Assembly: GCF_028389875.1 (NCBI RefSeq)
Contig: NC_084670.1
Coordinates: 11,379,383 to 11,443,382, forward strand
From: Rhea pennata
Taxonomy: Eukaryota > Chordata > Aves > Rheiformes > Rheidae
Reading direction: 5' to 3'
DNA length: 64,000 bases
The notes under the pieces were generated by a model, which was not told the origin of the DNA, did no database searches, and saw only the letters and a program-made list of their open reading frames with translations. This document shows, piece by piece, positions 4,101-39,219 of this stretch (position 1 is the stretch's first letter; every line of letters begins with the position of its first letter). Both the position numbers and the translations under genes were made by a program.

Positions 4101-6482
4101 CAAGGGGCTGTATCACTACCAGGGTCTTGATTAGATTGTGTGGTGAGTACAGAGCCAAGGTCCAAACTGACATGTGAGCTGCACTGACATGGCTGCTTCT
4201 AACATGTGGGTGCCTAGAAGATATCTATGAAGATATCCATGAGGAAACCAGGAAGTAAGTCAGGACCCCTTAGAAGGAGAGCCCAACCTTTGCCTGGAAT
4301 GAAAGAGATGACCCTATGTGACAAGAGACAGCCAGCATGACAGAGCTGGCACACTGTGTCAGACGTGCAGGGAACATGCACACTTCACCTGCACTATCCC
4401 CTGGAAAACTGAATTACAACAAGTAGATCCTGCAGACAGAGCCTAACTGTCTGTGTGTCTGTCATTTTGCTTTCTCTCTAGCAGGGTTGTAAGGGAGTGC
4501 TTCTGCTTTTTTTGCATGTGTTACTGCTGTGTCCCTGGAGCACTGTCAGACCAAGTAATTGCACAGCCATGCAGTGCAACAGCTTAGTTTTCAGTCAGAT
4601 CAGTCACTGAGTGACCACAATTGCTGCCAGAAGCTGGAACTCCCCTTTCAGCAGTTACCTAATGAACAGATAAAGCATATTATGAAATATACCCTTATTT
4701 AGTCAGCACCCATCCTAGAAAGAGAAAGCACAGAAAGGCACAGTACAGAATCATCTCAAAAGCACCTTTCTTCACTCATCAGGATAGCACAAAACCCTCA
4801 ATCTCTATCTGTAAAAAAAAAAAAAAACACTGAATCCCTTTGCCATTCTCCCCTTAACCTTTAAATATCAGACAGCCACTCACCACTTCTTGTAAGCGTA
4901 TTCCAAATAGGATGCTACAAAGCGGGTCTCAAACTCAGAAGCATATTTAGTGTCGTATATTCCTGCTGGAAACATTTCTGAGAGGTCAGCAGTGAAAGTG
5001 CCAAGGCTGTCTGGAAGGTGAGCATAGAAGCACTGGTACAAGAACACCAGATCAATCAGGCCATTATGGAGAACGAGGGGCTTCTTTGCTCGTATAAGTT
5101 CCAGAAAAAAGGTCCGAACGCTCTGGCTCTGGTTCTCATTGCCCTGAAAGAAGAAGGACTAAGTCAGCAAGCCTTAGTGTCTTGACTTGCACCCATACCA
5201 GGAAGTTCTTAGAGCCTGCTACAGCAGGATGCTGCCTTCATCTGTTGCTTGCTTTGACTATATACAGGCCTGGATATCTGGAAAAAGCAGCCACAACAAC
5301 AGAAAGCCTGGATATAAAAAGCAAAGGGATATCCCACAGTCGAGATCCCAGCTCAAGCCCATCTTCATACAGCAGCCACATGTCCTACACAGTAGCTGTA
5401 GGAAGACAACTCTGGGGCCGGGGGAAACCCAGCATCCTCCCTGTGATGTCTCTGCAAAAGCCTGGAGAAGGGCAAGCCAAGGAGCCCAATGCAGAGACAG
5501 CCACCAAGCACGGATTCACAGGAAAGTAGTAGGTATCGGCCTCGGGCAGCAGTTTCGTACCTTGTCATTGCCCTTGTGGTAGGGGATCCCCCGAGAGTAC
5601 TGCTTGTTGAAGTCAAAGCCGTGCTGCACCAAGAACTGCACTGACTGGGGCTCGACGATGTAATCTTCCATGCAGAGGAGCGTCAAGTTGTAGATCTGGG
5701 AGAGGTAGGTGTTCTCAGGCTGCAGAAAGAGAGCGTGCAAAGCAAGGAAGTCAGGCTAACACAAACCCCCGTTGCAAAGAGCTCTAGATAAGAAAGCAAC
5801 AAGTTCGAAGAGCTGTAAGCACTCAGCCAGACCGCGAACGTTGGTGGGATGAATCCCACCTCAACTTGGAGTCCGTGCGCCAGCTCCTCCCTCTGAAGGT
5901 CTCAGGCCAGCCGGGAGGAACGACTGGGTCCACGGCGAGCGAAGCCGCGCCCCGGGCCACCTACCTTTTCGGGGAGCTGTTTGAAGCACGCGATTCCCAG
6001 CGACAGCACGGAGCGCGTTCGGGCAGCGCTGCACACAGCCTTGTACCGCTCCTCGATGCACCTGCGCCGGGACGGCAACGAGAGCTGACGCGTCCCCACC
6101 GCCGGCGGCCCGCGCCGGCTGCCCCCGGGCCTGCGCTGCGGCGGGGCCGAGCGCGAACCGCCGCCGAGCCGCCGGGCCCGGGCCGTTACCGGCGGCGCCC
6201 CCCGCCGCGCCCCCATCCCCCCCCCCCCCCGCACCGGTGCGCACTCACGGGCTCAGCAGCGACTTCCTGGCGCCGAGGCCGCTCAGCTCCTGCGGGCGGG
6301 ACACTCCCGTCAGCGGCCCGGCCCGGCCGCGGGCACCGGCGCCCCCCGGCCGCCCCCCGCCCCCGCCTCACCGTGTCCACGGCGACGAAGGTGGCGGTGC
6401 GCACGGCCAGCACCATGGAGGGCCACAGCTCCGTGAAGTTGTCGCTCTGCACGTCCACGACCGGCACCCGCCAGCCCGCCAT
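1178..6482 (-). CDS. TOE1: TOE1, nuclear DEDD-family 3' exonuclease (target of EGR1 protein 1)
   Basis: Coding exons on the minus strand: 6482-6372, 6289-6249, 6061-5965, 5719-5561, 5143-4884, 3406-3235, 1981-1178. All have GT-AG borders and keep phase, giving 547 residues (human 510). TOE1 trims 3' tails and extensions of snRNAs and other small RNAs in the nucleus and Cajal bodies. The start at 6482 has a strong context (GCCATGG) and leads into VPVVDVQS. First exonuclease acids D36 and E38 (VAVDTE) span the exon 1/2 junction; a further acid is D167 in NGLIDL. A CCCH zinc finger is complete at C276, C285, C291 and H295, split by the last intron. A basic nuclear-localisation run ([14 protein letters not shown]) follows, then a low-complexity acidic and serine-rich stretch, and the conserved C-terminal block [12 protein letters not shown]...[11 protein letters not shown]. 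The bird N-terminus is about 28 residues shorter than human. Upstream it shares a promoter with MUTYH. Confidence 0.97.
2205..2690 (+). repeat. Old CR1 LINE fragment in the last TOE1 intron
   Basis: The plus strand is recognisably a decayed CR1 ORF2 3' part. Landmarks in CR1 order are CACTGTGTCCAGTTATGG, then GAAACCAAAGAAGATGGGC (the 'rarely elgl' region), GAGCACTGGAACAGG, and TTTGGAGGTATCAAAACTCA followed by a 'ctgagcaact' block. It has no open frame and is much more diverged than the CR1 at 29684. It is antisense to TOE1 and lies wholly within the 3234-1982 intron. Borders are approximate. Confidence 0.72.
4806..4830. repeat. Short poly(A) run in a TOE1 intron
   Basis: About 15 consecutive A bases follow TATCTGT. 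On the TOE1 strand this is a T tract about 80 bases into the intron that separates exon 5 from exon 6. The surrounding intron (3407-4883) shows no other feature that can be supported. Confidence 0.6.
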
Positions 6483-7042: not shown

Positions 7043-10000
7043 ATGAGCCAGCTCCGGGCGGCTGCTGCCAGGGGGCTCCGGCGGAGCCGCGCGGCGCCGT
7101 CCCCGGGGAAGAGCCGGACGGGCGCCGCGCCGCGCGGAGGTGCCCGGCGGTGGGAGGGCGGCGGGGTGCGGGCGGGCGGGCGCGGGCAGTCTTTCCTGCC
7201 CCTCCCGGAGCCTCAAGCCCCCAGCTCGGGCTCTTCCCGCTGCTTTGCGGCTCCTTACAGCGCCCTCGCAGGGCTCGGCCCTCGGCGCTCCGCCACCCGG
7301 CGGCGGCTCTGCTGAGCCCCTTCTGCCAGCCCCTCCTGTGCCCTGACCCTGTGCTGCTCTCTTGGCAGGGGGTCCTGCTCCAGCGCCCGCTCAGCCTTCT
7401 GCGCCGCATCTCTTCAGTGATGCAGCCGAGATTGAGGCCGTGCGCAGGAACCTGCTCGCTTGGTATGACAAATGCAAGCGGGACCTTCCCTGGCGGACAC
7501 TGGTAAGGGCAGGCAAGGAATCTGGTCCCACCACTTTTAGGGAGCATTGGTGAGGTGACTGCAGTGTCTTTCACTATGTGAGGCAAGCTTTAATGGCTTG
7601 AAAGTGGAAGGGGTCTTGGAAATGGGGTTGGGCTTTCAGCAGAACCTGGTTGTTTCCTGATCTGTGTCTAGTCTCTGACTGTGAGCGGTAGAGCAGGATG
7701 TAAGGTGAAGCTAGGAACAGGGTAACAGTTCTTCAAATGTATCCTCCCACTCTGAGGACTTTTCTACCATAAATGTAATCATTTTTAAACCTATTTTGTT
7801 CCTGTCTCTGTGGTGTCTTGCAGCAGTGAGTGCTGTGTAAAGATGACTTTCCTTGGATTTGTTGCAAGCCTGCAAAGTGTTTCAGCTAGTGCCATGCTCT
7901 GTACTAGGTCGAAAAACAGGTAGTTACCCAGTGGCTGGGAAAGTGTGGAGTGGACCTTAGCTTTATAGCAAGCATTCGTCCAAGTAGCACTGAGACCCGT
8001 GTGGCTCTTCTGGGACATGCTCCTGTGCAAAGGGGCTCGGGTCTGGGACAGCTCCTCTGTTGGGGTTTTGAGCCTCTAGGGCAAAGTCTGGCTGTAGAAG
8101 AGTCATGCAGTTTCTTGTGCTGTTTCCTGGGGACAGTGCTTTGGCTATTGCCTGGTTAACCTGAATTCAGAACTTGTGAGCACTTTGAGGGAGTTTTTTT
8201 TTTTTGTAGGTTCTTTCGTATTGCTCAAATTGCAGAATAAGTGATTTTTTTTTTTTGCCTGATCAAGTGCTTTGGGGTATCAGTATGCAGAGGTAAAATG
8301 GAAAGGGAATGAGTGGGCCTGGCATCTTTCAGGGCATGTCCATCTGCAAGAGAGGTCCTGTGTCACTCTGTTCTAACACTGTCTTCCTGTTTCAGGCTGC
8401 AAGTGAGCCAGATGTTGACAGACGGGCATACGCAGGTGAGGAGCAGGGACCGTGCTGGCAGCACTGAGGAGTGCTTCTGTGTTGCCACATGATGTGGATG
8501 CACAGCTCGGGCTTGTGAGGAACTAATGGCTTTTGTCAGCATCCTCTGAACAAGCTGCCTGCTGCTTCCGGCTGGCCATGAGAGCCTCCAAGTCCCACTA
8601 TCAAGCCTTTGGTGGGACAGCATGTGGGGATGGAGGGATGGATTTGGGAAGAGGCCCTGTGAGTGAGGGCTGCTACAGTGCTTGTCATCTGCAGTCCCAA
8701 TGTGGCCACGGTGTGGTAGGCCTGGTGGTGGTGGTGGGGGAGGGGGGGTCAGTGGCATTGGTACCTTTGCTCTGATCCCTCCTGTGCTCCCTGCAGTGTG
8801 GGTGTCTGAGATCATGCTGCAGCAGACACAGGTGGCTACGGTGATCGACTATTACAACCGCTGGATGCAGGTGATTCTTCCCCACGTCTTAGTCTTGTAC
8901 TTAGAGCCCTCTGTTTTGGAGATCTTGGCACATCCCCAACTGCAGAGCGCAGCTGTGCTTGCTCCTAACTTTTCCCTTCCCTCTGTATCACAGAAATGGC
9001 CAACACTGCAGGCTCTGGCAGAAGCATCCCTGGAGGTGAGCGTTGCTTGGGACTGGGCACTCTCCTGTGCTCGTGGCCCTTCCTGTTGCCCCTTCTAACA
9101 CCGCATCATGCCTCTTGGAGCAGGAGGTGAACGAGCTGTGGGCAGGACTCGGCTACTACTCACGAGGGAAGCGTCTGCAGGAGGCAGCGAGGAAGGTAGC
9201 TGGGTGTTGAGATGTTGGGGGGCATTTCCTAATCTCTCTACAGCCCGTGAGGTGATGCTGGCTCACATCTGCCCTGGCTCCCAGGGGCTGTGTGCTGCTG
9301 GCAGTGCTCAAGTGTGGGGCCACAGAGACTGGGATCCCTCTCTACTATGGGCAAAATGGGTTGCAAATGCACATCCTGGCTGCTCCTCTGGCCATGGACG
9401 CTGCCTCTCTTGCAGGTCGTGTCCCAGCTGGCTGGCAGGATGCCCAGGACGGCTGAGGACCTGCAGAAGCTGCTGCCAGGAGTGGGCAGATACACAGCGG
9501 GAGCCATCGCTTCCATCTCATACGGCCAGGTGAGAGCTGGGCAATAGTGGCAAGAAGAGGGGCTGGTCTCTCCTCTCTGCCACCCAGATCTGCTCCCAGG
9601 AGAGTCCTGCTGTCAGAGCTTGCAGAGCTGAGGCTGCCCGGGGGGCTCTGTGCATGGTTCTGCTTCTCCCCTGCTTTGCAGCTCGTCTCTCCCACTGCCC
9701 GGTTCAGCATGCGGGTTGGAGTCGGGCTCATTCGTTTCCCTCCCTCCTGTCCCTGGGCCGGCTCCTGCGGAGCACAGGCAGGGCCCAGCACAATAACTGC
9801 TGCTGTCTGGCTCCTCATCCCAGGCCACAGGTGTTGTGGATGGGAACGTGATCCGCGTCCTGTGCCGCCTGCGGTGCATCGGTGCTGACTCCAGCAGCCC
9901 GGCAGTTGTCAACCGGCTCTGGTGAGGTGAACGCTTGTCCCTGTTCTGAGCTGCGTGGTTGGGCCTGGGTGTGGGCAGAGGGGTGCAGAGCCATTGCTCT

Positions 10001-12357
10001 TCTCCAGCACCCACCAGGGGCTTGTTCGCATCGGCTCTCTTGGTGGTAATTGCAGCTCTGCTCATTTGCAGCTGAGGATGGGAGTATTTGGGAGCCTCAG
10101 GGAGCTGAGCCCATGGAGGGAGGCCAGGGGTGCGGGAGCTCTTGGGAATGGAGGTTCCCCTCCTGGTGCTGGGGGTCGCAATTCCTGCACAAGGGAAAGG
10201 ACTCTTGTTGCCTCTGCTCAGCTGGGAGCATCTCCCTTTGCCGGCTGGAGTCCTGCGGGCCCTTCCCTGCGGAGCCCCGCGCCGCTCACTGCCATTTCTC
10301 CCAGGGACATGGCCAATGCCCTGGTAGACAGGAGCCGCCCGGGGGATTTTAACCAAGCCCTGATGGAGCTGGGGGCTACTGTGTGCGTGCCCAAGGCCCC
10401 GTTGTGCGACAAGTGCCCTGTGAAGCAGCACTGCCGAGCACGGCGCAGGGTAGGTACGGTCCCCAAACCTGTCTTGTGCTAGCATGCAGCTGGCTGGGGG
10501 CTAATAGCCCTCCCAAGAGGGCTGCAAAAAGACCCTGAGCCCACTCTCTGGATGCTTCTTATTTGTCCCTGTCCCATACCACTGTTGCAAGCTGTCCTTG
10601 GCTGGGTGTAATCTTGCATCCCAGGCAGGTGCTGGTCTCGAGAGGTTGCTGAGCATGGGACGAGGCTGGCTGATGGGTGAGCCTGTCCCTCTGTCCTGCC
10701 CCGCAGGTGGAGAAGGAGTTGGGCCTCGCCTCCCAGAGGCTGCTTGGGACCTGCGCCCCAGTGCCTGATGTCGAGGACTGTCGTAAGCACCGTGGCGGGG
10801 AGGATCCCTGTTGCAGCTCTAGGTACAGCCCTGCGGTGACTGTTGCTTTGGTGTTTTCAGGAGTTGGGGGCTGTTCCTTGTGCCCTCCAGCCACGGAGCC
10901 ATGGGACAGCAGCCTAGGGGTGACCAACTTCCCCCGGAAAGCAGCAAAGAAGCAGCCGCGGGTGGCGCGGATGGCCACATGCGTGCTGGAGCGGAGGGAC
11001 CACCGCGGGGCTCTGGAGTACCTCATCGTGCAGAGGCCCAGTTCGGGTACTGGCGCTGGGCGCGAGGAGGGCCGAGGCACCACGTGGCACCTTCCTGGCT
11101 GCCCAAGGCATGGAGCAGCCTGGGAACAGGGCGTGCCATAGCAGAGCTCCTTGCAGGCAGAAGGTGCCCGTCAGGGCTGTGATGAGGCTCAGTGTCCCCA
11201 GCTGCACCTCTCGCCTGTTCACATCTCTGCCCCTTCTCCCCAGGGCTCCTGGCTGGGCTGTGGGAGTTCCCCAGCCTCCCGCTGGCTCTGGGCCTGCAGG
11301 AGGAGGAGCAGAGGGAGGTGCTGGCGGATCATCTGCAGGCCTGGACAGGGCAGCGTGTCGCAGCAGGAGGCCTGCACTATGTTGGAGAGGTGAGCCTGGG
11401 GTCAGAGGGAGCAACATGAGCCCCATGCACAGCTCTGAGGGATGTAGCAGAATGAGGAAGAGGGTTCCTCTTCCCTCCCATTAGTCCTCTCCCTTCCTGC
11501 CTTGCTCCTCTCAGCCCTGATAGACCTTGGTTCATGCGTGGAGGAGCCAAGCGAGTGACACTACCCCAGCTGCCTCCCAGCTGCCCATCTCAGCCTGTTT
11601 TCATCTGCTTGCAGGTCATCCACATCTTCTCTCACATCCACCAGACGTATGTGGTCTACTCCCTACCTGTAAATGGAGATGTGACACTAGACCCTGAATT
11701 GTCTCCATCTCGCTGGGTGACAGAGGAGGAGTTCTGTACCTCTGCTGTGTCCACAGCCATGAAGAAGGTGCTGGAGGGCCTTTACTCTCTTCCCTCTGCA
11801 TCTCTGACACCTCTGAAGTCCCCCTGACTTCTGTGGAGCCATCCTGACTCCAAGCCCTGGATGTTATTCAACTGACTCTGGCTCTCTTGGGCTTCCTTCA
11901 GGTGCTGAAAGCGTATGGGAAGCAGCGTGGGGAGCAGAACAGCTTTTGCAAGGTGGGCATGGCTGGTGGGGTGAAGGAAGGTCTCGGGAGCCACTTAGTG
12001 TTGCCATGGGCCAGGCCACAGCCTGCATTGCTGAAGGCCTTGGCGCATGTGAGATGCGCTTGAGGGCTTGGGGTCAGGCCAGGGCAGGTCCTGGGGCATC
12101 CCTGGCCTGGGATGGGGCTGTGTGGGGGGGATTTACCTGGCTGGTTTTGCCTCTGGAAGTTTGTGTTGGGGTGTTCCCCTAGTTCTGCCCTGAAGGGTGG
12201 TTTCTGGGGGCTGCTCAGGGTTTGGCTCAGCCCCAGCTGGCCTTTCCTGCAGGGCTCCAAGAGGAAGCGGCAGGCAAAGCCAGGGGGAGCTGGTAGCTGC
12301 TCCACTGGGACGCAGCTCTCCCTCCACGCCTTCCTCCGAGCACCGAGCCCCCAGTGA
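7043..12357 (+). CDS. MUTYH: MUTYH, adenine DNA glycosylase
   Basis: Fifteen coding exons: 7043-7139, 7369-7502, 8396-8435, 8797-8870, 8994-9035, 9124-9195, 9416-9529, 9824-9921, 10305-10449, 10707-10782, 10861-11046, 11244-11389, 11615-11767, 11902-11952, 12253-12357. Phase holds throughout, giving 510 residues. The enzyme removes A opposite 8-oxoG in base-excision repair, in nucleus and mitochondria. The arginine-rich, acid-free first 32 residues resemble a mitochondrial presequence. E95 ([11 protein letters not shown]) and D197 (VVDGNV) match the catalytic acids, with the helix-hairpin-helix [12 protein letters not shown] between them. C251, C258, C261 and C267 form the 4Fe-4S loop (C-x6-C-x2-C-x5-C). 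A second cysteine cluster (CRVGGCSLC) sits in the linker. The Nudix-like C-terminal domain includes [11 protein letters not shown], the region of the human G396D variant. The last exon has a basic patch GSKRKRQ and a PCNA-binding box QLSLHAFL (497-504). The exon 13 donor (AAG|GTGCTG) is weak. Confidence 0.97.
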
Positions 12358-13676: not shown

Positions 13677-14879
13677 CTACTGTTGCTGGGCCATATGGAC
13701 CTGCACAGCTTTCCACAGAGCCCTTATATTGGCTTCCCCAAAGCCCGGGGCACCTTGCCGCTCAATGAGCTCCAGGAAGAAGGTCTCCTCAGGGAAGATG
13801 GGGTGAGTGAAGATCTGCATTAAGTATTTCTTCTGAGAGGAGCTCTCTGAGATGTCAGCAGCCAGCCAGCCATTCTCACTGTCCCCAGGCACTGCAGCAT
13901 CCAGCAGGATGCCCAGCTCAGCCAGCACATGGGGATCTTGCCCAGCCCCCTGAATCTCCTCCTTTTTGCCCCCCTGGCTGTAATAGGTGGGAGGGGGCAT
14001 GAAAAACCACACGCCAGCCTGCTTCAAGGCCCTGGTTGTGTTTATGATGTCTGGGGTGCAGAGGCCAATGTGCTGGATCCCGGGCCCCCTGTGCTGCTCC
14101 AGGAAGGTATCAACTTGGTTCATGCCATCCTCTGAGAGGGACTCAGCAAAGATGAGTTTGCAGTTGTGGAGGGGCAGGGCTGGGGTATCCTCGCTGCTCT
14201 GCAGTGCCAGGAGGAGCATGCTAACCCCTTGCCCACTGATAGTGTACCCCTTGGACAGGCTCTCCTGCGGGTTCAGCTGGAAGCGCTGGAAACCAAAGCA
14301 TTGCTGGTACCAGTCCAAAGCCACTTTGGTGCTCCCCCGTGAGCAGACATAGGTGATGTGGTCAAAGTGTGTGATTTCAACATGATCCCCAACATCTAGG
14401 GGGGGTCCTGGGATTGCCTGAAAGCCAGGCAGGAAGAGCCCCCGGTAGCGGGATCGGTCAAGCAGGGTATGGCTGATGTTGCCCACGATGGAGCTTGCCA
14501 CCGCGTAGGTGACAGAGCCGCTGTCATCACCCACCTCGGTGGGGGGCACCTGCAGGGAGCACCCCCGGCTCTGTAGCTGCTTGCAAAGCCCAGGTACATT
14601 GTCCACCTCAAAGCAGATGTTGGAGGCTGTGCCCAAGGCTGGCTGGGGGTCCACATCATAGAGAAAGTCCCCATGGGAGCTGCCACCACAGCTGGGTGCC
14701 AGGCGCTTATTGACTATGAAGACGGCAGCGCCCTGCCGGAGAGCCAACTGCCGGACCCGTGGTGTCTCCCGCACGGCAAAGGGCTGGAAGCGAAAGGCGG
14801 TGGCGAGGTCCTGGGCCCAGGCCTGCCCGTAGGGGATGTGGAGGGAGACGAAGCACACGCGGCTCAGCGAGGCTGCCAT
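13677..14879 (-). CDS. HPDL: HPDL, 4-hydroxyphenylpyruvate dioxygenase-like protein
   Basis: One uninterrupted coding exon, 400 residues (human HPDL 371, also single exon). HPDL is a mitochondrial non-haem iron enzyme of the vicinal-oxygen-chelate fold; in mammals it converts 4-hydroxyphenylpyruvate to 4-hydroxymandelate, a step towards a coenzyme Q head-group precursor. The three iron ligands of the HPPD family are present: H174 (HFDHITYV), H270 (GIQHIGL) and E370 (FFLELIERQG). The C-terminus RQGAPGFGEANIRALWKAVQ is typical. The start at 14879 (MAASLSRVCF) fits the human start. An upstream in-frame ATG at 14915 lies beyond a good 3' splice site at 14901-14902, so is probably intronic. About 20 extra residues (near 328-349, PGDSENGWLAADISESS) lengthen the loop before the last beta strands. 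MUTYH converges on it from the other side. Confidence 0.96.
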   Translation of the reverse strand: MAASLSRVCFVSLHIPYGQAWAQDLATAFRFQPFAVRETPRVRQLALRQGAAVFIVNKRLAPSCGGSSHGDFLYDVDPQPALGTASNICFEVDNVPGLCKQLQSRGCSLQVPPTEVGDDSGSVTYAVASSIVGNISHTLLDRSRYRGLFLPGFQAIPGPPLDVGDHVEITHFDHITYVCSRGSTKVALDWYQQCFGFQRFQLNPQESLSKGYTISGQGVSMLLLALQSSEDTPALPLHNCKLIFAESLSEDGMNQVDTFLEQHRGPGIQHIGLCTPDIINTTRALKQAGVWFFMPPPTYYSQGGKKEEIQGAGQDPHVLAELGILLDAAVPGDSENGWLAADISESSSQKKYLMQIFTHPIFPEETFFLELIERQGAPGFGEANIRALWKAVQVHMAQQQ

Positions 14880-14900
14880 GGCATGGGCGCTTTGGGCACG

Positions 14901-16121
14901 CTGCAGGGAGGACACGTGGCTGTCAGAGCAGTCTCTGTGGGGCTTGCTGGCCTCAAGGAATTAGCTGTTCCCCCACCCCTTACCCTGATCCACCAGGCTG
15001 TGATAGATACCATGCATGTGGCTCTGTGTTTGTGTAAATGTATACACACACACAGGTATGTATGCATGCACATATGTGTATATATATTCTTAAATAAGGG
15101 TCACTTATTGCACTTGCAAGAATAGATGCTTCTCACCGTCTTCTGAGGGCACCTGCCTTTGAGACTAGCTGCAAGGTGCTACCTAAAGATGCTGAATATT
15201 CCACGACCCCTCTGGGGCCTGGTAGCTGCTCTGCCCCACACGAGCACTGGGGGCTGGGGAGGAGGAAAGCCCCAAGCCCTTGTGGCAGCCAAGGGAGACC
15301 CTCCTGGAGTCGTGCATCCTAGGAGGGGGCTGCAGCAAGGTTTGTGATAGGGATAGTCAAGGGTATCTGGGTGCTTGAGGAGTGTGTGTGGCCGTGGGGA
15401 CGAAGGTAGTGGGGGCACCCTGTACCAATAACTGGGAATGCAATGGTTGGACTGGTAAACACAGAGGAGCATGCTGGTTATGTCCTGAAGTCTCCTGCTC
15501 GGCCCCTGCCCGCGTCAGCGGTGCACCCCTGCTCTGCTAACGGCACGGGGCAGCAGAGACACGGCAGCGCCATGCGCCAGCCCCCTTCCCGACAAGGACG
15601 GCGGGGACACGGCGCTCCCCCAGCAGGCGCCGAGCCGTGACCTTGCTCTAGAGCCACAGAGGGTGAAGTATGTGAGACACCAGTGGGAACTGACCCTCCC
15701 CCCCCAGGGCAAAAATACGATACTTAATGGGAATAAAAGACCTGTCCAAAAATATCATTATTGGACGAGAGCATCCAGCTGAGGCCTCCTGACCCCATGG
15801 ATGTGCATCGGGGTGGGAGTGGGGGAAACCTGTTTAACATTGCCCCACCACCGCCCCGGGAAGGGGGCCTTGCTGGGGCTGGCAGAAAGCCTTCCCCCCC
15901 CCCCCAACCCCGAGCGAGCCCGGGCGCGTCGGCAGGGCCTCCCGCACGGCCGCCCTGCTTCCCTCCTCCCCTCCCGCAGCTGCTGCGCCTGCTCCCGGCA
16001 CGGCCTCCGCCGCTGCCGCCGGGCCTGGCACAGCCCCGCCATCCCCGCCAGGCCCGCCGTCCTCCTGTCCTGCCATCCCATCATCCTGCTGTCCCGCCAT
16101 CCCGCCAGGCCCGCGGCTCAC
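14901..16121 (-). other. HPDL: Predicted HPDL 5' UTR intron
   Basis: On the minus strand a consensus donor CAG|GTGAGC lies at 16124-16116, inside the CpG island. An acceptor TCCTCCCTGCAG ends at 14901, 21 bases before the HPDL ATG, with a branch-like CTCTGAC upstream. Joining them places the HPDL transcription start in the island rather than in the AT-richer DNA just upstream of the coding exon. This is inferred from splice signals alone; human HPDL is usually shown as one exon. Confidence 0.4.
15036..15090. repeat. Imperfect (TG/CA)n-(TA)n microsatellite
   Basis: Alternating purine-pyrimidine tract (TGTATACACACACACAGG, then GCACATATGTGTATATATAT). It lies in the predicted HPDL 5' UTR intron. 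Confidence 0.85.
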
Positions 16122-17700: not shown

Positions 17701-18372
17701 GAATTGGGACCCTCTGTCCACACCAGGCAGCTCCCTGCTCCCTCCCCACCGCCCCGGAGCAGCCCCCGACCCCAACGTCCTCCCCGTGCCCATTAAACGT
17801 GCTGGATCCGGGAGGGATGAGGTGTATCTCGGTGCGGGAAGGGTTGGGGAGGATGCTTGGTTGGGCAAGTGTCGAGGGGTTGCAAGGTCCACGCAGCCTC
17901 CCCCCGCCAAGAGCTTTGCGGAGGCGTGGGGGAGCTCAAGGTGGCCTGAAGGTTAAAACGCCTGTGCAGAGGCCCCGGGTGTTTGCCCCGCGCTCCTGCC
18001 CTTTGCACTGCGGACGGCTGGGACGTCGTTAACCCCGGCAGCCCCGACACCGCGGCAGAGGGGAAACCGAGGCACGCTGCCGCGGCCACCGGCGAGGGGG
18101 CGGCGTCCTTCGGCCAGGACTGAGATCCCCCAAACCCAAACCGTTAGCCCCGTTTCTGGAGACTCGAGGTCCGGCCGCACGGCCCCCGCCCCCAGCCCCT
18201 CCGCAGCGGGTGCCCGGCACGACGCTGCCCTCCCTGCAGGAATCAAAGCAGGTCTTTGTGCCCCGGCGCCGGCTGCAAAACCCGCCGTTCCGCCGAGGCA
18301 GCGGGGCGCCAGGCGGCGAGGGCGCTGAGGACGTAATATCCCGCTTCCCTCCTCCTCCTCGCCAGGGCCGGG

Positions 18373-21300
18373 ATGGGGCCGGCGGCAGCGCTGGCCCTGG
18401 CCACCTGGCTGGTGGCGGCGGCCGAGGGGGCGGCCAACAGCAGCCGGCTCTGCCAGGAGCCCCCGGCGTGGACGGTCAACGGCTCGAGCCCCATGGCGGG
18501 GGCGGCGGGGCAGGTGACGGTGGTGGCCCTGCTCAAGGCCAGCTGACACTTCTGCCTGTTGCAGGCCCGCAGGTGAGACCCGCCGCCATCGCGGGCCCCG
18601 TTGCCGGCGGGGTGGTGGCGGTGGGGGTGGCCCCGGCCCGGCGGCGAGGCCCCGTGCGGCCCCTGGCGCCCCGTCGGGCGCCGCCTCCCTCCGTCTCTCC
18701 CCGCAGCCTCGGGGTCTTGCGAGAGAAGCTGTCGCGGCACGGCATGGCCGACGTCCGCTACATGATCGTCAACGAGAAGGCGCCGCTGTCGCGGGCCATG
18801 TTCGGGGAGCTGGCGCGCCAGGCACCTGCCGGCGTCCCCGTGTACCAGCAGGAGCCCCAGGACCCCGATGTGTGGCAGGTCCTGGAGGGCAACAAGGACG
18901 ACTTCCTCGTCTACGACCGGTGAGCACCGGGCCCGGGCCCTGCCGGGGCGGCGGGGGAGCGGGATGGCAGCTGGCGGTGGTGGTGGTGAGGACACCAGGG
19001 TCCCCCCCTCCACGCCGGCTCTGCTCAGGGTCAGGACACTGGTTTCCGCCACAGGAGCGCCATCCCGGCCGGTGCCGGCCCCTTGGACTTTGGCTGCCGC
19101 GGGGGCCGGCGGTGGGGTCCTGCGAGGGGGGAGCCGCCGAGCACCCGGTCGTTGCCTGGGTGGCCCCGGCACCCAACGCCCCTGCCCTCCTGGTCCGCCC
19201 CTGGGGCCCTGGTGAAAGGTTTCCAGCGAGAGAGCCCTGGGGGGGCCGTGAGAGCTGAGAGCTCTCTGCTGTCCCAAAAGCTCGGGGGCTGCGGGCCTGG
19301 GTACCCTCTGGTTGCCCTCAGCCAGGCTGCTGTGCCGGAATTATCTCCACCGCTAGATGTCCTGGGTTTCCATCGCGTTCTCCTGCGGTCACTAGGGGAT
19401 GTAGCCACCAGCACAGCTTGATCCCTCCCATCTTACAAAACAGCCACCCGCTCCGAGCACCCACGGCCCAATAGCCCAGCTCGGCAGAGTGTTGGCAGAG
19501 CTGAGGAATGGGATTAATGATCAGTAGAGCTCAGGACTTTCCGTCTGAGCAAGGGAAAGGTTCATCTGAGACTTGCGTGAGTCATCACAGAGCACCCCAC
19601 CTCGAGGGCATTGCTTAGGCCGGGAGAGGCGTGGGGCCGGCTGTGGGTGCAAATCACACTGTGTGCACCTCAGTTCCCCCAGCTGCAGGATCATGTTAGT
19701 GTTTTGCTGTCTGTGGGCAGAAAATGCTCCCTGCGGGTAGCGTTATTGCTTTGTGCAGGGTGGTGTGGCATCAGGAAAGGCAGGAGGTAGCTGAGGGCTG
19801 AGAGAAGGCAAGGTTGCTGGGCTGAGTCACTTTTTTCTGCCCTGGTGAAGCGTCTCAGTGCCCCATTGCTGGGCTGGGAGGGCAGAAGGGGGATCCTCTC
19901 TTTCAGCCCCTTTAGCTCAGCCCTCGATTTGCCCCACAGCTGTGGCCGCCTGGCTTTCCACATCCAGTTACCCTACAGCTTCCTCCATTTCCCTTATGTT
20001 GAGTCAGCCATCCGCTTCATCTACAGCAAGGACTTCTGCGGCAACTGCTCTCTCTACTCCAACAGCACCCAGGAGGTAAGAAGCAGCGTGCAGTGCAGGC
20101 TGAGCACTTTGAGCACTTACCAGACCCAGATTCCCGTCTCTTCTCTTGAGCTGGCCCCCTTTGGCTTCAGGCTGAGCACTTGGGATCTCAGCATCCCAGC
20201 AGGGACCCAGGACAGTTCCACCCCACGCAGATCCTGTGCTGCTTTATTCCAGGAGGTGACTTCTCATGGAAATCTGTCTTGGTCTCAGAGGCCTGGAAGG
20301 TGGCTAGAACCAGGGTTGTTTTTAAAAAGAAGGAACCAGGGAATGAGAGCTCTAAATCTAACATCCAAACTGACAGAGGCTAATAAAGAATAAAATACGT
20401 GGTGCTGCAGATGGGCAGGATGTTTTGTGGCACAGCCAACATGCTGTGGGAGGGGAGGCAGAGCTCCCAAACCTGCATAGAGGAGACGGTCCCCTGAGAT
20501 GCTGAGGCATCCAAAAAGTAAGCAGTGAGATTCCTCACCAAAGGTCTTACAGGCAGCTGTGGTGCAAGAGAGGTGTTTATCTGTTCCATGGATAAAAAGT
20601 TAGTTGAAAGATAGGAAACAGGGTAGCAGTAAGTGGCTGGTTCTTGCAGTTGCACAAAGGCTGTTCCAGGACCAGGGCTGTTTCAGCATCTTCAGCAGCT
20701 GGGGAGAATGGGCTGCTTCAGAGAACAGAGGTGTGACAGAATTTGATGATACTGGGTTATCTGGGCTTGTATAATTGAAAACCAATTGCAAGGAACTGCA
20801 GAAATACCTCAGAGTACTGTGTGAGTGAATAAGTGCAGATGAATTTCAGTGTGAATAAATGAAAAACAGTGCACATCAGACAAAACAACCCTTCATCTAC
20901 CTTCCTTTAGGGTGTGGGCTCAGTTGGCAGTCACACTCGGCCATGGGGTCTTGGAGATCTAGGGATTAATATCACGAGAATACTGTGTTCAGTGCACAAT
21001 ACAGCAACACATCCCTCCCCCCACCAAACCTAATGTTAAAAATGGAATGGAGAGCAAAACAATGTTATGCCTTTGTGTAAACCCACGCTGCATCACATCT
21101 TCAAGCCTGTGTGCAAATCTGCTCTTGCTGATAATAGGACTGGAAAAGGTTGAGAGGGAAGGTGGTGAAAACCCTGGAATAAGGGTAGCTAAATAGATCA
21201 GGGTTTTGCAGGCTGAGAAGGAGGGGACTGAAAGGGTTATAGTAGAGGAGTATAACAAGCAGCCTGGAAAAGCAGACCAAGATCACTGTCTCTTCTGATA

Positions 21301-21945
21301 TAAGGAAGGGGAATGCAATGGACTCAGTCATGGCAAGCTCAGAGCAAAGAAAAGCACATAGCTCCCAGCTCTGGGCTCAGCGGGTGATTAGACACTTCAT
21401 AGAAGAAAAATCCATCTAGGACTATTAAATGCAAAGGCTCTTTTCTGGCACAGGAATTCCCTGGACCACAGTCAGCTTGAGCCAAGGGATGTGCGTAAAG
21501 AGGTTTGCTGTCTGTGTGCTCTAATCTCTTCTGTCGTCTCTGTGTATTGGGTCCTGGCTAGAGAGGCTTTTCTCTGACTTGTGCAGCTTTCCTTACGACT
21601 GATACTCTTCTGCTTTCATCCCAGCACGTATGTGCACTTGCAGGGTCACTGCGGGGCAGTGTGTGCATTCATGTAACATACCAACCTTTGTGTTACTTTT
21701 CCCAGTTTAACAGCACCATTGAGGTCCCTGCAAACCCAAGCCTGCTTCCCAAACAGGAGGAGAAGGAGCCAGGGATGCCCATTCACCAGCACAGCCCTCT
21801 CCATTCTCAACACCTTGTGGTCAGCAGTGAAAAAGCCTCAGACCTGAGTGGGGACCACCAACCTGCTGCCCATGGTCTCCACCACCACAGAGACCACAGC
21901 AAGACCGATCCCAAGGGGCAGGAGCAGGAGCAACATGACCACTAA
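18373..21945 (+). CDS. SELENOP2: SELENOP2, selenoprotein P2 (SelPb), single-selenocysteine secreted protein
   Basis: Coding exons 18373-18572, 18707-18919, 19940-20075, 21706-21945; GT-AG borders and phase agree, giving 262 residues if the TGA at 18544 is read as selenocysteine (U58). The frame stays open and family-like after it. A hydrophobic signal peptide (about residues 1-20) is followed by the selenoprotein P N-terminal domain: LCQEPPAW, VTVVALLKAS, a UHFC redox motif (U58, C61) as in thioredoxin-fold proteins, VPVYQQEPQDPDVW, KDDFLVYDRCGRL and LPYSFLHFPYVE. N-glycosylation sequons are NGS, NCS, NST and NST. The tail is histidine-rich (HQHSPLHSQH, HGLHHHRDH) and ends QEQEQHDH. The selenocysteine-rich C-terminal domain of SELENOP1, which carries selenium in plasma, is absent. 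Selenoprotein P2 is known from fish, amphibians and birds and is missing in placental mammals. Its role is not established; a secreted redox or heparin/metal-binding protein is plausible. Confidence 0.93.
18544..18546 (+). other. SELENOP2: UGA recoded as selenocysteine in SELENOP2
   Basis: In-frame TGA, codon 58, in the first coding exon. It sits between KAS and HFCLLQA, exactly where human SELENOP has U in ASUYLC. The reading frame continues 26 more bases to a consensus donor and three further exons follow in frame. A SECIS element in the 3' UTR (22196-22262) supplies the required signal. Confidence 0.92.
20560..21340 (+). repeat. Ancient CR1/L3-type LINE relic in SELENOP2 intron 3
   Basis: The plus strand follows the old vertebrate CR1/L3 ORF2 in order. 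Landmarks: GTTGAAAGATAGGAAACAGGG; a reverse-transcriptase active-site remnant that still reads EFDDT at about 20731-20748; GCAGATGAATTTCAGTGTG with AATAAATG; TATGCCTTTGTGTAAACCCA, then CACATCTTCAAGCCTGTGTG and GCAAATCTG; GGACTGGAAAAGGTTGAGAG; and ATAGTAGAGGAGTATAACA. It has no long open frame and clearly predates the CR1 at 29684. Both borders are approximate. Confidence 0.72.
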
Positions 21946-22195
21946 GCAGGGCTGGGCTGCCTTGGGGAACTCAGTGCTGTGCAAACCATGCCAATCCACT
22001 TCCTAGAGGCATGAAAGAACTTGCTGGTCCCTCAGGTTGCTGGTCACCAGCAGCATTGATTTAGCAACCTCCTTCAGCATCCCTCATGTAGGTCATATTC
22101 CCACTCCGTAATGAAAATCTCCCTCAGTCATCAAAAGATGCTGCCTTTCCTGCTGTAGGGTTCAGTTCTGACTTCCTCTGCTGACGCTTGCCTTT

Positions 22196-22262
22196 CCATG
22201 ATCAATGAAGCCCGCAGTGCAAACTGGGACCACCCTGGTCACTGCGGGATGACACTGCATGG
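22196..22262 (+). promoter_or_regulatory. SELENOP2: SECIS element of SELENOP2 (type II)
   Basis: All parts of a eukaryotic SECIS are present in the 3' UTR, 250 bases after the stop. Helix I is CCATG (22196-22200) with CATGG (22258-22262). The quartet is ATGA at 22205-22208 against TGAC at 22250-22253, giving tandem G-A/A-G pairs. Helix II is A22209-T22250 plus nine uninterrupted pairs, CCCGCAGTG with CACTGCGGG. The unpaired AAA at 22221-22223 begins 12 bases after the quartet. A small extra stem GGG/CCC over an ACCA loop caps it, making it type II. This structure recruits SBP2 and the selenocysteine elongation factor so that UGA is decoded as selenocysteine. Confidence 0.88.
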
Positions 22263-22690
22263 AGCAGCAGAGCAGAGGTGGAGGAGACAGAACTGGGACG
22301 TGAGCAGTGCTGGCCAGCAGAGCCTCTGCCCATCCTAGCATCCCCAGGCATCTTGGCCAGGGAGTGAGTGGAGGGGCAGTGTGCACCCATGAGATGTGAG
22401 CCCAGAGGGTAGAGGAGTTACAAGTGAATGCTTATGGGAGGTCACTGCTTCTGATGGTCCAAACCCTGTACCCCCAAAGCTGCTACATTCTGGGGACCTC
22501 CATGCCTTGCACACAGATATGTGCAGTGGTGATGGGTGGCCGCAAGATGGTGGCCTTGCTCCCTCTTAGAAACCCAGGGGCCATGTCCAGGGCCCACAGC
22601 CCTAGGAGAATGCACATGAAGATACTGGGGCCTTTCCTGGAGAGGGAGAGAGGTCGGTGGTCTATGGGGGATGTGAATATTGAGATCATG

Positions 22691-22696
22691 AATAAA
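22691..22696 (+). terminator. SELENOP2: Poly(A) signal of SELENOP2
   Basis: AATAAA on the plus strand, 430 bases after the SECIS, giving a 3' UTR of about 770 bases that contains it. A GT-rich stretch follows (TCTGTGGAGTG, CTGGTGGTGCC). Confidence 0.6.
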
Positions 22697-22719
22697 ACCT
22701 CTGTGGAGTGAATCCTGCT

Positions 22720-25700
22720 GAGCCTGGCCTCTGGTGGTGCCCCTTTCCCAGGGGGGATGGAGGGTCTTGCTCAGACCTGACTTGGAGTGATTTGGGAAGG
22801 CACATGCTCTCCCAGCATGAAGGGATCTGGGCAGCATGTGGACTCCACAAAGCAGCAGCTGGAGAGAAGATTTGCGTTCTCCTGTGGAGGGAACTGGAGG
22901 TAAGGCAGAGGGAGAGAGAAGAAACACTCATTTTTTTTTTATACCTGCCCATTACTTTCTGACCTGGGAGGGAAAGCAGGGTTTGAATCCAGGACTTAGC
23001 CTCCGTAAGGGCGGAGTGCACCCCTGCACTATCTGGGGGAAGTTTGGCTGGGCACCTGGGTGTCTGGCTTGTAGGTATGATGTGGGGCTGCCTGCCCTGG
23101 GCTATGGAGTGAAGTGGGCAGTGGGGACAGAGATCTTGACAGGTTAGAGCTGGTCAGAGGGGAGCTGGGGGAATGTGGGGAGAAGAGAGAAGGAAGAGAG
23201 ATTGAATGGGGGTTTGCAGAGACCCAGCACAAGTGGGGGTTGTGGGTGAGCCTGAGGCCTTGCTAAGTTAAATAGTAACTACCACCTGGTTGCTAGTGGG
23301 TCCCAGACTTTGCAGGACCTGAAAATATTCCTTTTAGGTTTAAACCTCACAAGAGCTTTGAGTGAGGCTATACTTCAGCCCACACTGCTGGAGATGTTGG
23401 AACTCCCTGTGCCTGTGCTGCATGGGGGTGGGACTGTGCAGTGCAGATCTGTTTGCTTGGCACCCTGTCTGCTGTTTGCCCAGCTGACTGGACTACTTTG
23501 CTCCTTGCTGATGTTGCTGAGAGGTGGCCGGAGCTGACAGTGAGCTGCTGGGATGCTGCAGTTGTCCTCATGGGGATCAGCCAAGTATGTATGCATGATG
23601 GAGAGGGCAGCATGGGGCCCATAGCAAGATGAGAATGTAAGGGCAGTCAAGCGCTTGTGGTCAAGATCTTCTCACTGCTGATGGAAGGAAGATGTTTTTT
23701 CTGCTTAATGCTATACGGGTCCATGTGTTGGTGCTTATCCTGTTGCAGACTCTCTGAGCTGAATTTCTGCCCCATGTTCTGGAAGGCTGCATCCCTCTGT
23801 CCATCGCTGCCAGGCGGTGCTTTGCCCAGCAGGCAGGACAAGACCCAGGATGAACAGGAGATGGTCCCTGTGGGGACAAGCACAGAGCAATCAGACGGGT
23901 CTTTCTCAGCAGGCCAGCGGAGTCAGCCCCACTCTCCTGTGGGGCCTTGGCACTAGTTGTGCCAAGAACCAAAGGTGTGGGGTCCCACAGAGACCCTGAT
24001 CTCCCTCCCTTCTCTCTCTCTCTCTCGCTCCTTTCTTCCTCCTCCTCCCCCCTTCCTCCTCTAGCTGCTCCAAGCAGCCCCCAAGGGCACCTCTGTCTGC
24101 TGCTCTTGCCATCAATATCGAGGTTATCTTCTTCTTCTGGCAGCTGCTGTAATTGAAACAAAGCAGGCCGAGCCTCACGGGCTCCACTCCTCTTGCTTAT
24201 TTTGCTGGTGCTGCTGAGACAACTAATTCATTTTATCGATGTGTGGCTGGCCTCTTTTCCACCAGATTCAGGCAGAGCCCTCTCTGCGCCACAGGCGGTG
24301 GGAACAGTGTGTGTCCCCACGACGTGCTGCTGGGTGCTGTTGTGAGCCAAACTCTGGTCCTTGGCTTGCAGAGGCAGGGGCTGGTCACCAGCAGGAGCTG
24401 AACACGTCCCTGAGTCCCCAAGCCCAGCAGAGCAGCCCTGCCTGGGGACCAGAATGGCCAGGCCAGGTCCTACTCCCATGCACACAGCGCTTGGGAACGT
24501 AAGGTTAAAATCTGGGCTGTGCTTCTTGTCCTGCTGTCCTCACACTGTCCCAAGAAGTGCCTTCGAAATGCGCCTGTCCGGAAGGAAGCACGATGCACTC
24601 TTGTGGCGGGCTTGCCTTCAGCACCTCCTCCAGCTGCTGGAAGCCCAGACCTGCCATGCAAACAGCTGCTCTCCTCTCCTTTAAGTCTCTTCCTACTCAC
24701 AGGACTCTTTCCCCACCAGAAGTCCCTCCTCGCCACAAAACTCCAAGGACTCTCAGGGGCTGAGAGTGGCACTGGACACCATGCACTGGGCTCTGCTGCT
24801 GCAGCCTTTGGCAACCCCCTCAGCTCCATGTGTCAACAGCCCCCAACCTGCCACCATGACAAGAGGAAAGAAAGCTGAGCCCTCTCCTGTCCCCCTGACT
24901 CCCAGGTTGCTCTGGAGTTGCGCCCTGTGGTCCTGCTTTGGGGAGCTTTGGTGGAGCAGCCTTCCCACCAAGTGCCAGGGCAAGCCTCCAAGGCAGGTGC
25001 CATTCCTGGGTTAGGGTTAGCAGCAGACTTAAAACTCTCCGTGCTTTAGGTTTGCTGCTTTCTTTTTCCATCTTGGATCCCTTTCTGACAACAAAGACTG
25101 TTGCCAGCATTGCAGGGACACCAGGGAACTGCACATGGGTGTCTCCTGTAGGAATACAGCTCTGCACAGATGCAGCACTTGCCTGCTGGGACACGCATGA
25201 GGAAATGCATGTGTGCATGTGTCAAGGACACAGATAATCAAGCCCCATGGTTCAGGTGTACAAAGGACATGGGCACCTTCATGTTCCCACATCAGTAACT
25301 GAGGATGTAATGTAATGTGTAAAGTAAAGTAACTGTATTGCATAGTTAAATCCTGATGAATGAATGTACCAAGGCAGCATCGTTAAGGTTAGTCTCTGGA
25401 TTTATAAATACATTTATCACTTTCTGTTTAATAATTAAATCACTCAATCACTGCCAAAAGTATTTATTATGGCCTGGGACCATCCTGGCTAGGATTGTGG
25501 TCTTCCCAGAAGAATGGAGACCCTTGGGAGAGATCTAGGGATTGCTGGGTCCCAGCGACGTGCCCGACACATTTACAAGCACTGAGTCGTCCACCCCCCC
25601 CCACACCAAGTGCAGATGAACAAGATGTGACCAGGTTACTTCTATCTTAAAATTAGAGCTGTGGAACCACTTCAGCTGCTCTTTACCCTGCCAATGCAAG

Positions 25701-29773: not shown

Positions 29774-31330
29774 CTAGAGCATGTTAGACAGGGTTGCATC
29801 CAGGTGGGCCTTGAATATCTCCAGAGAAGGAGACTCCACAACCTCTCTGGGCAACCTGTTCCAGTGCTCCGTCACTCTCACAGGGAAGAAATTCCCCCTC
29901 ACGTTCAGGCAGAACTTCCTGTGCTTCAGTTTCTGTCCATTGCCTCTTGTCCTGTCACACGGGACAACTGAAAAGAGTTTGTCCCCATCCCTTTCACACT
30001 CTCCCTTCAGGTACTTATAAACACTGATAAGATTCCCCCCCCTCAGTCTTCTCTTCCCCAGGCTGAACAGGCCCAGCTCTCGCAGCCGTTCCTCATGGGG
30101 CAGGTGCTCCAGCCCTCCGATCATCTTTGTAGCCCTATGCTGGACTCTCCAGTAGCTCCATGTCTCTCTTGTACTGGGAGCCCAGAGCTGGACACAGTAC
30201 TCGAGATGAGGCCTCCCCAGGGCTGAGTAGAGGGGCAGGATCACCTCCCTCAACCTGCTGGCAACACTCTTCCCAATGCACCCCGGGATACCATCAGCCT
30301 TCCTGGCCACAAGGGCACATTGCTGGCTCATGGTCAGCTTGTCATCCACCAGCACTCCCAGGTCCTTCTCTGCAGAGCTGCTCTCCAGCAGGTCAGCCCC
30401 CAGCTTGTACTGGTGCCTCGGGTTATTTCTCCCTAGGTGCAGGACTCTGCACTTGCCCTTGTTGAACCTCATGAGGTTCCTCTCTGCCCAACTCTCCAGC
30501 CTGTCCAGGTCTCTCTGAATGGCAGCACAGCCCTCAGGTGTGTCAGCCACTCCTCCCAGCTTGGTATCCTCAGCAAACTTGCTGAGGAGGCACTGCATCC
30601 CCTCATCCAGGTCATTGAAGTTGAACAGGATGGGACCCAGTACTGAGCCCGGGGGGACACCACTAGCCACAGGCCTCCAACTAGACTCCCTGCCACTGAT
30701 GACGACCCTCTGAGCTCTGCCTTTCAGCCAGTTCTCAATCCACCTCACTGTCCACTCATCTAACCCACACTTCCTGAGCTTATCTAGGAGGCTGTTATGG
30801 GAGACAGTGTCAAAAGCCTTCCTGAAGTCAAGGTACACAACGTCCACTGCTCTCCCCTCATCTACCCAGCCAGTCACTCCATCATAGAAGGCTATCAGAT
30901 TGGTTAAGCAGGATTTCCCCTTGGTGAATCCATGCTGGCTACTCCTGATTACCTTATTTTCCTCCATATGTCTGGAGATGACATCTAGAATGAGTTATTC
31001 CATCACCTTACCAGGGATTGAGGTGAATTTGACTGGCCTATAGTTGCCTGGGTCCTCCTTCTTGCCCTTTTTGAAGACTGGAGTGACACTGGCTTTCTTC
31101 AAGTCCTCAGGCACCTCTTCAGTTCTCAAGGACCTTTCAAAGACAATGGAGAGTGGCCTGGCAACAACATCTGCCAGCTCCCTCAGTACCCGTGGGTGCA
31201 TCCCATCCAGGCCCATGGATTTGTGGATGTCCAGCCTGCCCAGAAGGTCTCTAATCCTATCCTCCTCAACCAAAGGGAAGTCGTTCCTTCTCCAGACTCT
31301 CTCCCTCACCCTGACTTTCTCAGAGGCGCT
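29774..31330 (-). pseudogene. CR1 ORF2 reverse transcriptase, partial and inactive
   Basis: The frame encodes the reverse transcriptase and C-terminal part of CR1 ORF2, lacking the endonuclease. Palm motifs are in order: [79 protein letters not shown], then FAEDTKLGG, where CR1 normally has FADDTKLGG. The final [19 protein letters not shown]-like block ([15 protein letters not shown]) and a stop at 29774 complete it. A TAA at 30995-30997 falls in the same frame where CR1 usually has glutamine (GKVMEQLI). The changed active-site aspartate and the stop mean it makes no enzyme. Confidence 0.9.
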
Positions 31331-31690
31331 CGTGGAACAGTAAGGTAAAATAGTAAAACCTTTTGTAAAGACCAGAAATAACAGACACATGGACAAATAT
31401 TATAAATGGAGATGAAATGATTTGATTTTTCCCAAAGCTGGTTTTACCAGGCTTTTTCTTTTGCAGATGGGAGTGTTTTCCCGGTGGAAGGGTGGCATGT
31501 AGCAGGGGAAGAGAGCAGCAGGTCTCATCCTCGCAGGTGTTGCTATAAACACTCATCCTTGCTGTGGTCTGTGCGTTGCCCAGGTGGGGCTGTGCAACCC
31601 AAAGGAGATGAGATGGGGACCCATCAGGCCCCGGACAGAAGCCCCCTTGGAGGCATCACCTCCCTTTCTCATTGCTACCTCTGGATCTAG

Positions 31691-36922: not shown

Positions 36923-38473
<1,551 letters not shown>

Positions 38474-39219
38474 TAGTGTTTTACATAAAATAATCTGCTC
38501 CTGGTTATTATTAAAAGTGATTGAAATGCGTGTTCCCATTAAAATGACATTAGGCTGGAATTTGTTTTGCAAATGTGGAAATGTAAATTCATCTCGTGCC
38601 AGGGTATGGCGTGAATGAGTGAAGGGAGGGTGGTTTCTTTCTGTTTTTGTTTTAAGGGATGGTTAGTTCTGCTGTGTTTATTTAAAGAGCCCTCCTTCCA
38701 TTCCGGGAAAAACTGCTTTAAAAGAGAAAAAAATCACATTTGGTACAGTTTACATTTAAAAGGGCATTATCAAAACGTTTTCCAGTTGAGGCATGAAAAT
38801 AGAAAACAGAAAAAGAATTTTTCTTTTACCTCTGAGGATGTGCAGTGAAAATTCATGCAACACAAAAGCTCTTGCTCTGAGGATATGATTATACCCTTTT
38901 TTTGTGAATTAGTATTTTCTAAGGGCTGCGTTAAGATGATTAATTATTCTGAGTTGGTTTAAAATACTTTGAAACTCAAAACCAAATAATTTTTTTAAAG
39001 AGAAAGAGCTCTGAAGGAACTTTAAAATTAGAGGGGGAAAAAAATCAGCTTGCCGTGGGTAACGTTTGATTAAACTGGCTATCGAAGTATGGATGCGAGC
39101 TGCAGCCAGCGTGGGAGATTTAGGTAACGGTTGCCTAAAATCGGGGCTGGTTCTGTACAAGGGATTTTTTTTTTTTTAATTAAAGGGGATTTTTTTTTTC
39201 TTTTAAATGCGGCTCGGAA

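Follow-up and report, generated by a model that had tools for sequence, protein, structure and literature searches.

Does an in-frame TGA at codon 58 of a bird gene end the protein, or does it specify selenocysteine (Sec)? The question is raised by a gene within a 64,000-nucleotide (nt) stretch of the Rhea pennata genome (RefSeq assembly GCF_028389875.1, contig NC_084670.1, positions 11,379,383 to 11,443,382, forward strand), called here the window, to which all coordinates below refer unless another contig or locus is named. I consider it nearly certain that the gene is an intact ortholog of SELENOP2 (also known as SelPb or SEPP2), whose UGA 58 is read as Sec by way of a hairpin in the 3' untranslated region (UTR) that resembles a selenocysteine insertion sequence (SECIS). 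SELENOP2 is a known vertebrate gene, on record in birds since at least 2008 (PMC2397514), and the present copy is a clean example, ordinary to a specialist. The gene is composed as follows.

18373..18572, + strand: SELENOP2 coding exon 1, with a signal peptide-like start, MGPAAALALATWLVAAAEG, and the beginning of the SelP_N domain; donor GTGAGA, phase 2
18544..18546, + strand: predicted selenocysteine codon, in-frame TGA, codon 58, of the U-H-F-C motif
18707..18919, + strand: SELENOP2 coding exon 2, 213 nt; acceptor CCCCGCAG, donor GTGAGC, phase 2
19940..20075, + strand: SELENOP2 coding exon 3, a Cys-containing part; acceptor CCCCACAG, donor GTAAGA, phase 0
21706..21945, + strand: coding part of exon 4, a His-containing tail; TAA stop at 21943-21945
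21946..22720, + strand: SELENOP2 3' UTR, to just past AATAAA; its end is assumed
22691..22696, + strand: polyadenylation signal AATAAA, 3' of the SECIS-like hairpin

When the exons are joined, they give a frame of 262 codons followed by TAA, interrupted by three introns that are all GT-AG, with phases 2, 2, and 0. The TGA at 18544-18546 is the only stop inside this frame, which has no second in-frame UGA and no frameshift. As the TGA is codon 58, residue 57 would end the protein if the TGA were a stop. The first-pass annotation, drawn from the letters of the DNA, had said as much: that the TGA lies in frame within KAS-U-HFC, that taken as a stop it would leave residue 57 the last, and that the frame runs on over three more in-phase exons. 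No in-frame ATG is found in the approximately 40 nt checked upstream of the ATG at 18373, and an in-frame TAA is present in the genomic sequence at 18334, which may belong to an intron rather than to the 5' UTR.

What does the protein say of itself? With residue 58 entered as Cys for the search, the whole protein matches Pfam SelP_N (PF04592) from residue 23 to residue 247, over profile positions 2-217 of 234 (E = 9.5e-76). The protein was also cut into four pieces, each scanned separately, as a test of whether the match stands on both sides of the TGA. It does. Within the piece comprising residues 1-57, residues 23-57 match SelP_N positions 2-36 (2.3e-10), residues 59-138 (the end of exon 1 plus exon 2) match positions 38-117 (1.3e-27), and residues 139-183 (exon 3) match positions 118-161 (3.8e-18), while residues 184-262, the tail encoded by exon 4, have no Pfam match of their own. 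The pieces match adjoining stretches of the profile, so that the sole profile position missing between the first two is that of the Sec itself. There is a single U in the protein, residue 58, in U-H-F-C. Five N-glycosylation motifs and five Cys occur in the protein, and its part from residue 184 onward has 12 His. It gives no Pfam match to SelP_C, the Sec-rich C-terminal domain. A sequence search of the PDB with the 262-residue protein met no solved structure up to E = 1, and NCBIfam offered just a weak match to a thioredoxin-fold selenoprotein model (NF053656, E = 0.0055, 16.6 bits against a cut-off of 100), which is not used here as evidence.

The genome itself provides a second point of comparison. 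A profile search of the Rhea pennata assembly (1.27 Gb in 180 contigs, with all 9 SelP_N candidates scored) gave six SelP_N exon matches, that is, two genes with three each: SELENOP2 on contig C8, which holds the window, and SELENOP1 on contig C61.

L005 836-7132 (contig C61:66184335-66190631): SELENOP1

SELENOP1 encodes 378 residues, with 14 UGAs and both SelP_N and SelP_C. A local alignment of the two proteins contains 104 identities in 233 aligned pairs, and within it UGA codon 58 of SELENOP2 is aligned with UGA codon 55 of SELENOP1. The SelP_N match to exon 1 takes in one TGA in each gene plus one more stop (TGA in SELENOP2, TAA in the gene on C61); the extra one in SELENOP2, at 18574, is an overrun of the match past the donor into the intron. 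Both genes have intron phases 2, 2, and 0, a 213-nt exon 2, and a spacing of 26 nt between UGA and intron, a spacing described as highly conserved in SelP, with intron positions common to SelP and SelPb (PMC5133445). They differ in that SELENOP1 possesses 13 additional UGAs and the SelP_C domain, SELENOP2 neither. The first-pass annotation's assignment of the gene to selenoprotein P, and to SELENOP2 in particular, is supported by the strength of the SelP_N match and the presence of two SelP_N genes in the genome, and its recoded codon by the alignment of UGA with UGA. Folding of the sequence downstream of the UGA at three lengths gave apparently stable structures in both paralogs, with no shape evidently in common, and no claim is built on them.

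SELENOP1 of this genome invites remarks of its own. Despite its 14 in-frame UGAs, a single SECIS lies above the Rfam cut-off in L005 7100-9000 (36.2 bits). A scan of L005 7100-9900 for the SECIS descriptor described below gave a second site at L005 7922, an unconvincing one. Turkey SEPP1 likewise was found with one SECIS, versus two in mammals (PMC4466519).

Reading UGA as Sec calls for a SECIS, and the 3' UTR of SELENOP2 contains a hairpin of the appropriate form.

22196..22262, + strand: SECIS-like element, with basal stem CCATG 22196-22200/CATGG 22258-22262
22205-22208/22250-22253, + strand: SECIS-like core, ATGA/TGAC
22211-22219/22240-22248, + strand: SECIS-like main helix, nine perfect pairs
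22223-22228/22234-22239, + strand: SECIS-like capping stem

All the parts of the hairpin named by the first-pass annotation, from the ATGA/TGAC quartet and the nine perfect pairs to the capping stem and the CCATG/CATGG basal helix, were found in place. The main helix starts 2 nt (on the 5' side) and 1 nt (on the 3' side) inside the UGA/UGA core. The annotation also spoke of an AAA bulge 12 bases on. The spacing holds, 12 nt separating the core TGA from the AAA at 22221-22223, and in the fold model C22220, A22221, and A22222 are unpaired (0.98-0.99), but the third A, A22223, is predicted to pair with T22239 (unpaired 0.11), where it opens the capping stem. With a bulged AA on the 5' side beneath a mini-stem, the hairpin has what I take to be the type 2 SECIS shape. 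The fold of 22180-22275 has an energy of -39.3 kcal/mol (z score -2.96), equaled by 2 of 200 shuffles.

How often would such a hairpin arise by chance? A descriptor that asks for a UGA, a helix of at least 9 pairs, an AA 10-14 nt further on, and a second UGA finds one site on both strands of the window, and that site is the SELENOP2 hairpin. In shuffles of the whole window, the same descriptor gives a mean of 0.32 sites, with at least one site in 130 of 500, while in shuffles of the 775-nt 3' UTR (+ strand) it is present in 72 of 20,000. If the requirement is relaxed to at least 8 pairs, then three more sites appear in the window, at 38905 (+), 52512 (+), and 31139 (-), the average in shuffled sequence being 0.92 sites. 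In view of these extra sites, the descriptor by itself is weak evidence. The hairpin would be unremarkable in a genome scan on its own and stands out given its position in SELENOP2. There, the stretch from ATGA to TGAC is 49 nt long and starts 260 nt beyond the stop codon, and the distance from the UGA to the SECIS core in the predicted mRNA is 877 nt, little different from the average of 872 in mammals (PMC3316567).

At second hand, published bird transcripts fit the predicted gene. The chicken SEPP2 primers for quantitative polymerase chain reaction (qPCR; PMC4821606) map across the predicted exon 3/4 junction with 1 mismatch each, defining a product of 107 nt, equal to the published length, as against 1737 nt without splicing. 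The turkey SEPP2 qPCR primers (PMC4466519), with 4 and 5 mismatches, span the same junction and likewise reproduce their published length, 120 nt. Both forward primers fall in SELENOP2 exon 3, and the mismatches point to a species other than chicken or turkey. For the cloned 3' part of the turkey SEPP2 mRNA one SECIS is listed, at 566-614, 237 nt past the coding sequence (PMC4466519), a stretch of 49 nt like that from ATGA to TGAC here, if the same end points are assumed. Sequence divergence is the sole difference seen between published bird SELENOP2 and the gene in the window.

Several observations nonetheless weigh against the reading of UGA 58 as Sec. Rfam SECIS_1 (RF00031) scores the hairpin at 19.9 bits (E = 0.55, cut-off 35), as compared with the 36.2 bits by which the SECIS of SELENOP1 reaches the cut-off, and a Rfam scan of the whole 64-kb window at the gathering cut-off found no match. 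On the other hand, the alignment to the model covers all 64 of its positions, core, helix, and AAA falling where the model has them, and a SECIS is not defined by this covariance model. Pairing of the quartet and the AAA in a fold had been named by the first-pass annotation as grounds against its reading. The AA came through this check free, but U22206 and G22207, the UG on the 5' side of the core, pair with A22254 and C22253 in more than half of the ensemble (unpaired 0.41-0.42). The energy model is a nested one, and the sheared tandem G.A pairs of a SECIS core are outside its scoring, so the competing pairing neither proves nor refutes the quartet.

Nor has the tRNA come readily to hand. The tRNA-Sec model gave 23 listed matches in the Rhea pennata assembly, none above the cut-off, with 53 of 56,579 candidates scored, and two Sec-tRNA queries built from a human sequence gave no match in the same assembly. 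The family search also gives matches in all 14 control genomes, above the cut-off in 5 of them. The Sec-tRNA of turkey was also not located in its first genome sequence (PMC4466519). From the literature come further points of the same kind. A limited search met no published transcript that spans the UGA of a bird SELENOP2; the turkey SEPP2 clone is without its 5' part, and the accompanying table gives no position for a UGA (PMC4466519). The legend to Figure 1 of that paper speaks of 12 UGA codons in SEPP2. Both the table and the abstract place those codons in SEPP1, and the legend is probably a slip. Direct proof of Sec in a bird SELENOP2 protein was likewise not met in the limited search, which brought up no paper on ribosome profiling of SELENOP2 either, and may exist in print.

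A side result of the tRNA search concerns contig C10, where the tRNA-Sec model has 15 tRNA-like matches within 24893906-25013059, mostly about 6 kb apart and each at 41.5 bits, below the cut-off. They may form a tandem array of some other tRNA.

Might the TGA then be just what it appears to be, a true stop or a disabling mutation that leaves a decaying pseudogene or a short peptide, the downstream exons being remnants? A TGA is by default a stop, the hairpin falls below the Rfam cut-off, and the search for Sec-tRNA, which scored few candidates and leaned on a human query, picked none out of the assembly. Against it speaks, however, that the splice sites of all three introns are intact, that 262 codons contain no other stop or frameshift, that strong SelP_N similarity persists on either side of the TGA, that SELENOP1 carries UGA at the aligned residue, and that a SECIS-like hairpin sits in the same 3' UTR. 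I judge this explanation very improbable. Translation might instead restart after the TGA, at the next Met, in exon 2 (HGM), producing a protein without Sec and making the hairpin incidental. Annotation pipelines do often produce models that lack the Sec codon (PMC12822975). Such a protein would lose its signal peptide and UxxC, yet the part of exon 1 that encodes them is conserved with SELENOP1 and with the SelP_N profile, and the hairpin turned up by chance in few of the UTR shuffles; a restart is improbable in the extreme.

There is scarcely any chance, finally, that the gene is SELENOP1 (SelPa) itself or a recent copy of it. The two have the N-terminal family in common, and the 104 identical residues in 233 are what such a view would draw on, but a distinct SELENOP1 with 14 UGAs and SelP_C sits on contig C61, the gene in the window has one UGA and no match to SelP_C, and its neighbors, described below, are consistent with the SelPb locus. 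I conclude that UGA 58 of SELENOP2 is very probably decoded as selenocysteine.

By the established eukaryotic pathway, a SECIS-binding protein (SBP2) on the 3' UTR hairpin would recruit EEFSEC with Sec-tRNA, and the ribosome would insert Sec at UGA 58 instead of terminating. The product would be secreted and glycosylated, and would combine a thioredoxin-like domain with a putative redox motif, Sec58-His-Phe-Cys61. Part of the ribosomes may stop at UGA 58, exposing the mRNA to nonsense-mediated decay. The exon junctions past UGA 58 are 26, 239, and 375 nt downstream, and by the 50-nt rule for nonsense-mediated decay the first of them is too near. The junctions at 239 and 375 nt would make the mRNA a target for decay if UGA 58 terminates. 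Having a single Sec and lacking a Sec-rich tail, SELENOP2 is probably an extracellular redox protein bearing a short His-rich tail, not a bulk carrier of selenium like SELENOP1.

The SelPb proteins of birds, fish, platypus, and opossum resemble the one described here in having one Sec, placed in a UxxC in coding exon 1, SelP_N, a His-containing tail with no Sec-rich tail, and one SECIS after the stop. SelPb has a single Sec, present in the proteins of fish, birds, and mammals and replaced by Cys in frog, and has been lost in placentals, armadillo excepted (PMC2397514); a loss before placental mammals is also given in PMC3316567. For salmonids, SelPb proteins that contain 1-4 Sec have been reported (PMC6301783), as against the 1 of the window gene. 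In turkey, high expression of SEPP2 is apparently restricted to liver (PMC4466519), where selenium deficiency halves SELENOP2 mRNA (PMC7205448), while in the liver of chicks no significant regulation of SEPP2 was seen (PMC4821606).

Does the gene also lie where SelPb should lie? The other features of the window are these.

1181-1981, - strand: CAF1 match, 21.2 bits, below cut-off (24.2)
4886-5158 and 5561-5755, - strand: CAF1 matches, both above cut-off
8763-9041, + strand: HhH-GPD match, 25.7, below cut-off (26.2)
9320-9535, + strand: HHH match, above cut-off
11546-11818, + strand: NUDIX_4 match, 31, below cut-off (35)
13680-14960, - strand: Glyoxalase match, above cut-off
37388-38000, + strand: ZSWIM5-like first exon, GC-rich, protein start MAEGGE, no Pfam match

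The three CAF1 pieces resemble what I take to be TOE1, the HhH-GPD, HHH, and NUDIX_4 matches presumably represent MUTYH, and the Glyoxalase match presumably HPDL; the exon from 37388 is called ZSWIM5-like on the same footing. The order in the window is CAF1, HhH-GPD/HHH/NUDIX_4, Glyoxalase, SELENOP2, and the ZSWIM5-like exon, and the part of the window 3' of this last exon may be its first intron. Given these presumptive gene names and the human order, the neighbors are consistent with the SelPb locus, short of establishing synteny. Synteny around SelPb is said to be conserved, chicken included, and human chromosome 1 to have the locus but lack the gene (PMC6301783).

Between SELENOP2 and the ZSWIM5-like exon, a reverse transcriptase frame occupies 29777-30985 on the - strand (RVT_1, 3.2e-18). 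It probably belongs to a CR1-type long interspersed nuclear element. The frame beside it, 30998-31393, has no Pfam match.

The first-pass annotation expected standard gene prediction to mishandle this gene, an expectation that fits published rates of error: annotation of vertebrate selenoproteins is reportedly flawed in 88% of cases in Ensembl, 95% in GenBank, and 23% in RefSeq (PMC12822975). The present analysis supplies a correct model of exons, UGA, and SECIS for a class of gene that automatic annotation often truncates. The model alters no view of selenocysteine biology. It bears on one speculative and rather doubtful idea, that an exon junction complex beside the first UGA, 26 nt away in both paralogs, helps or gates the decoding of Sec, for which SELENOP2 would be a natural test with one UGA and one SECIS. 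The published tethering idea differs in that it concerns SECIS 2 of SELENOP1, which is of type 1, whereas the SECIS-like hairpin of SELENOP2 has the type 2 shape. If the position of the intron is kept for the sake of decoding, then it should matter in SELENOP2 despite there being no second SECIS, and SELENOP2 offers a compact gene with one UGA in which the 26-nt spacing between UGA and intron is separated from multiple Sec codons.

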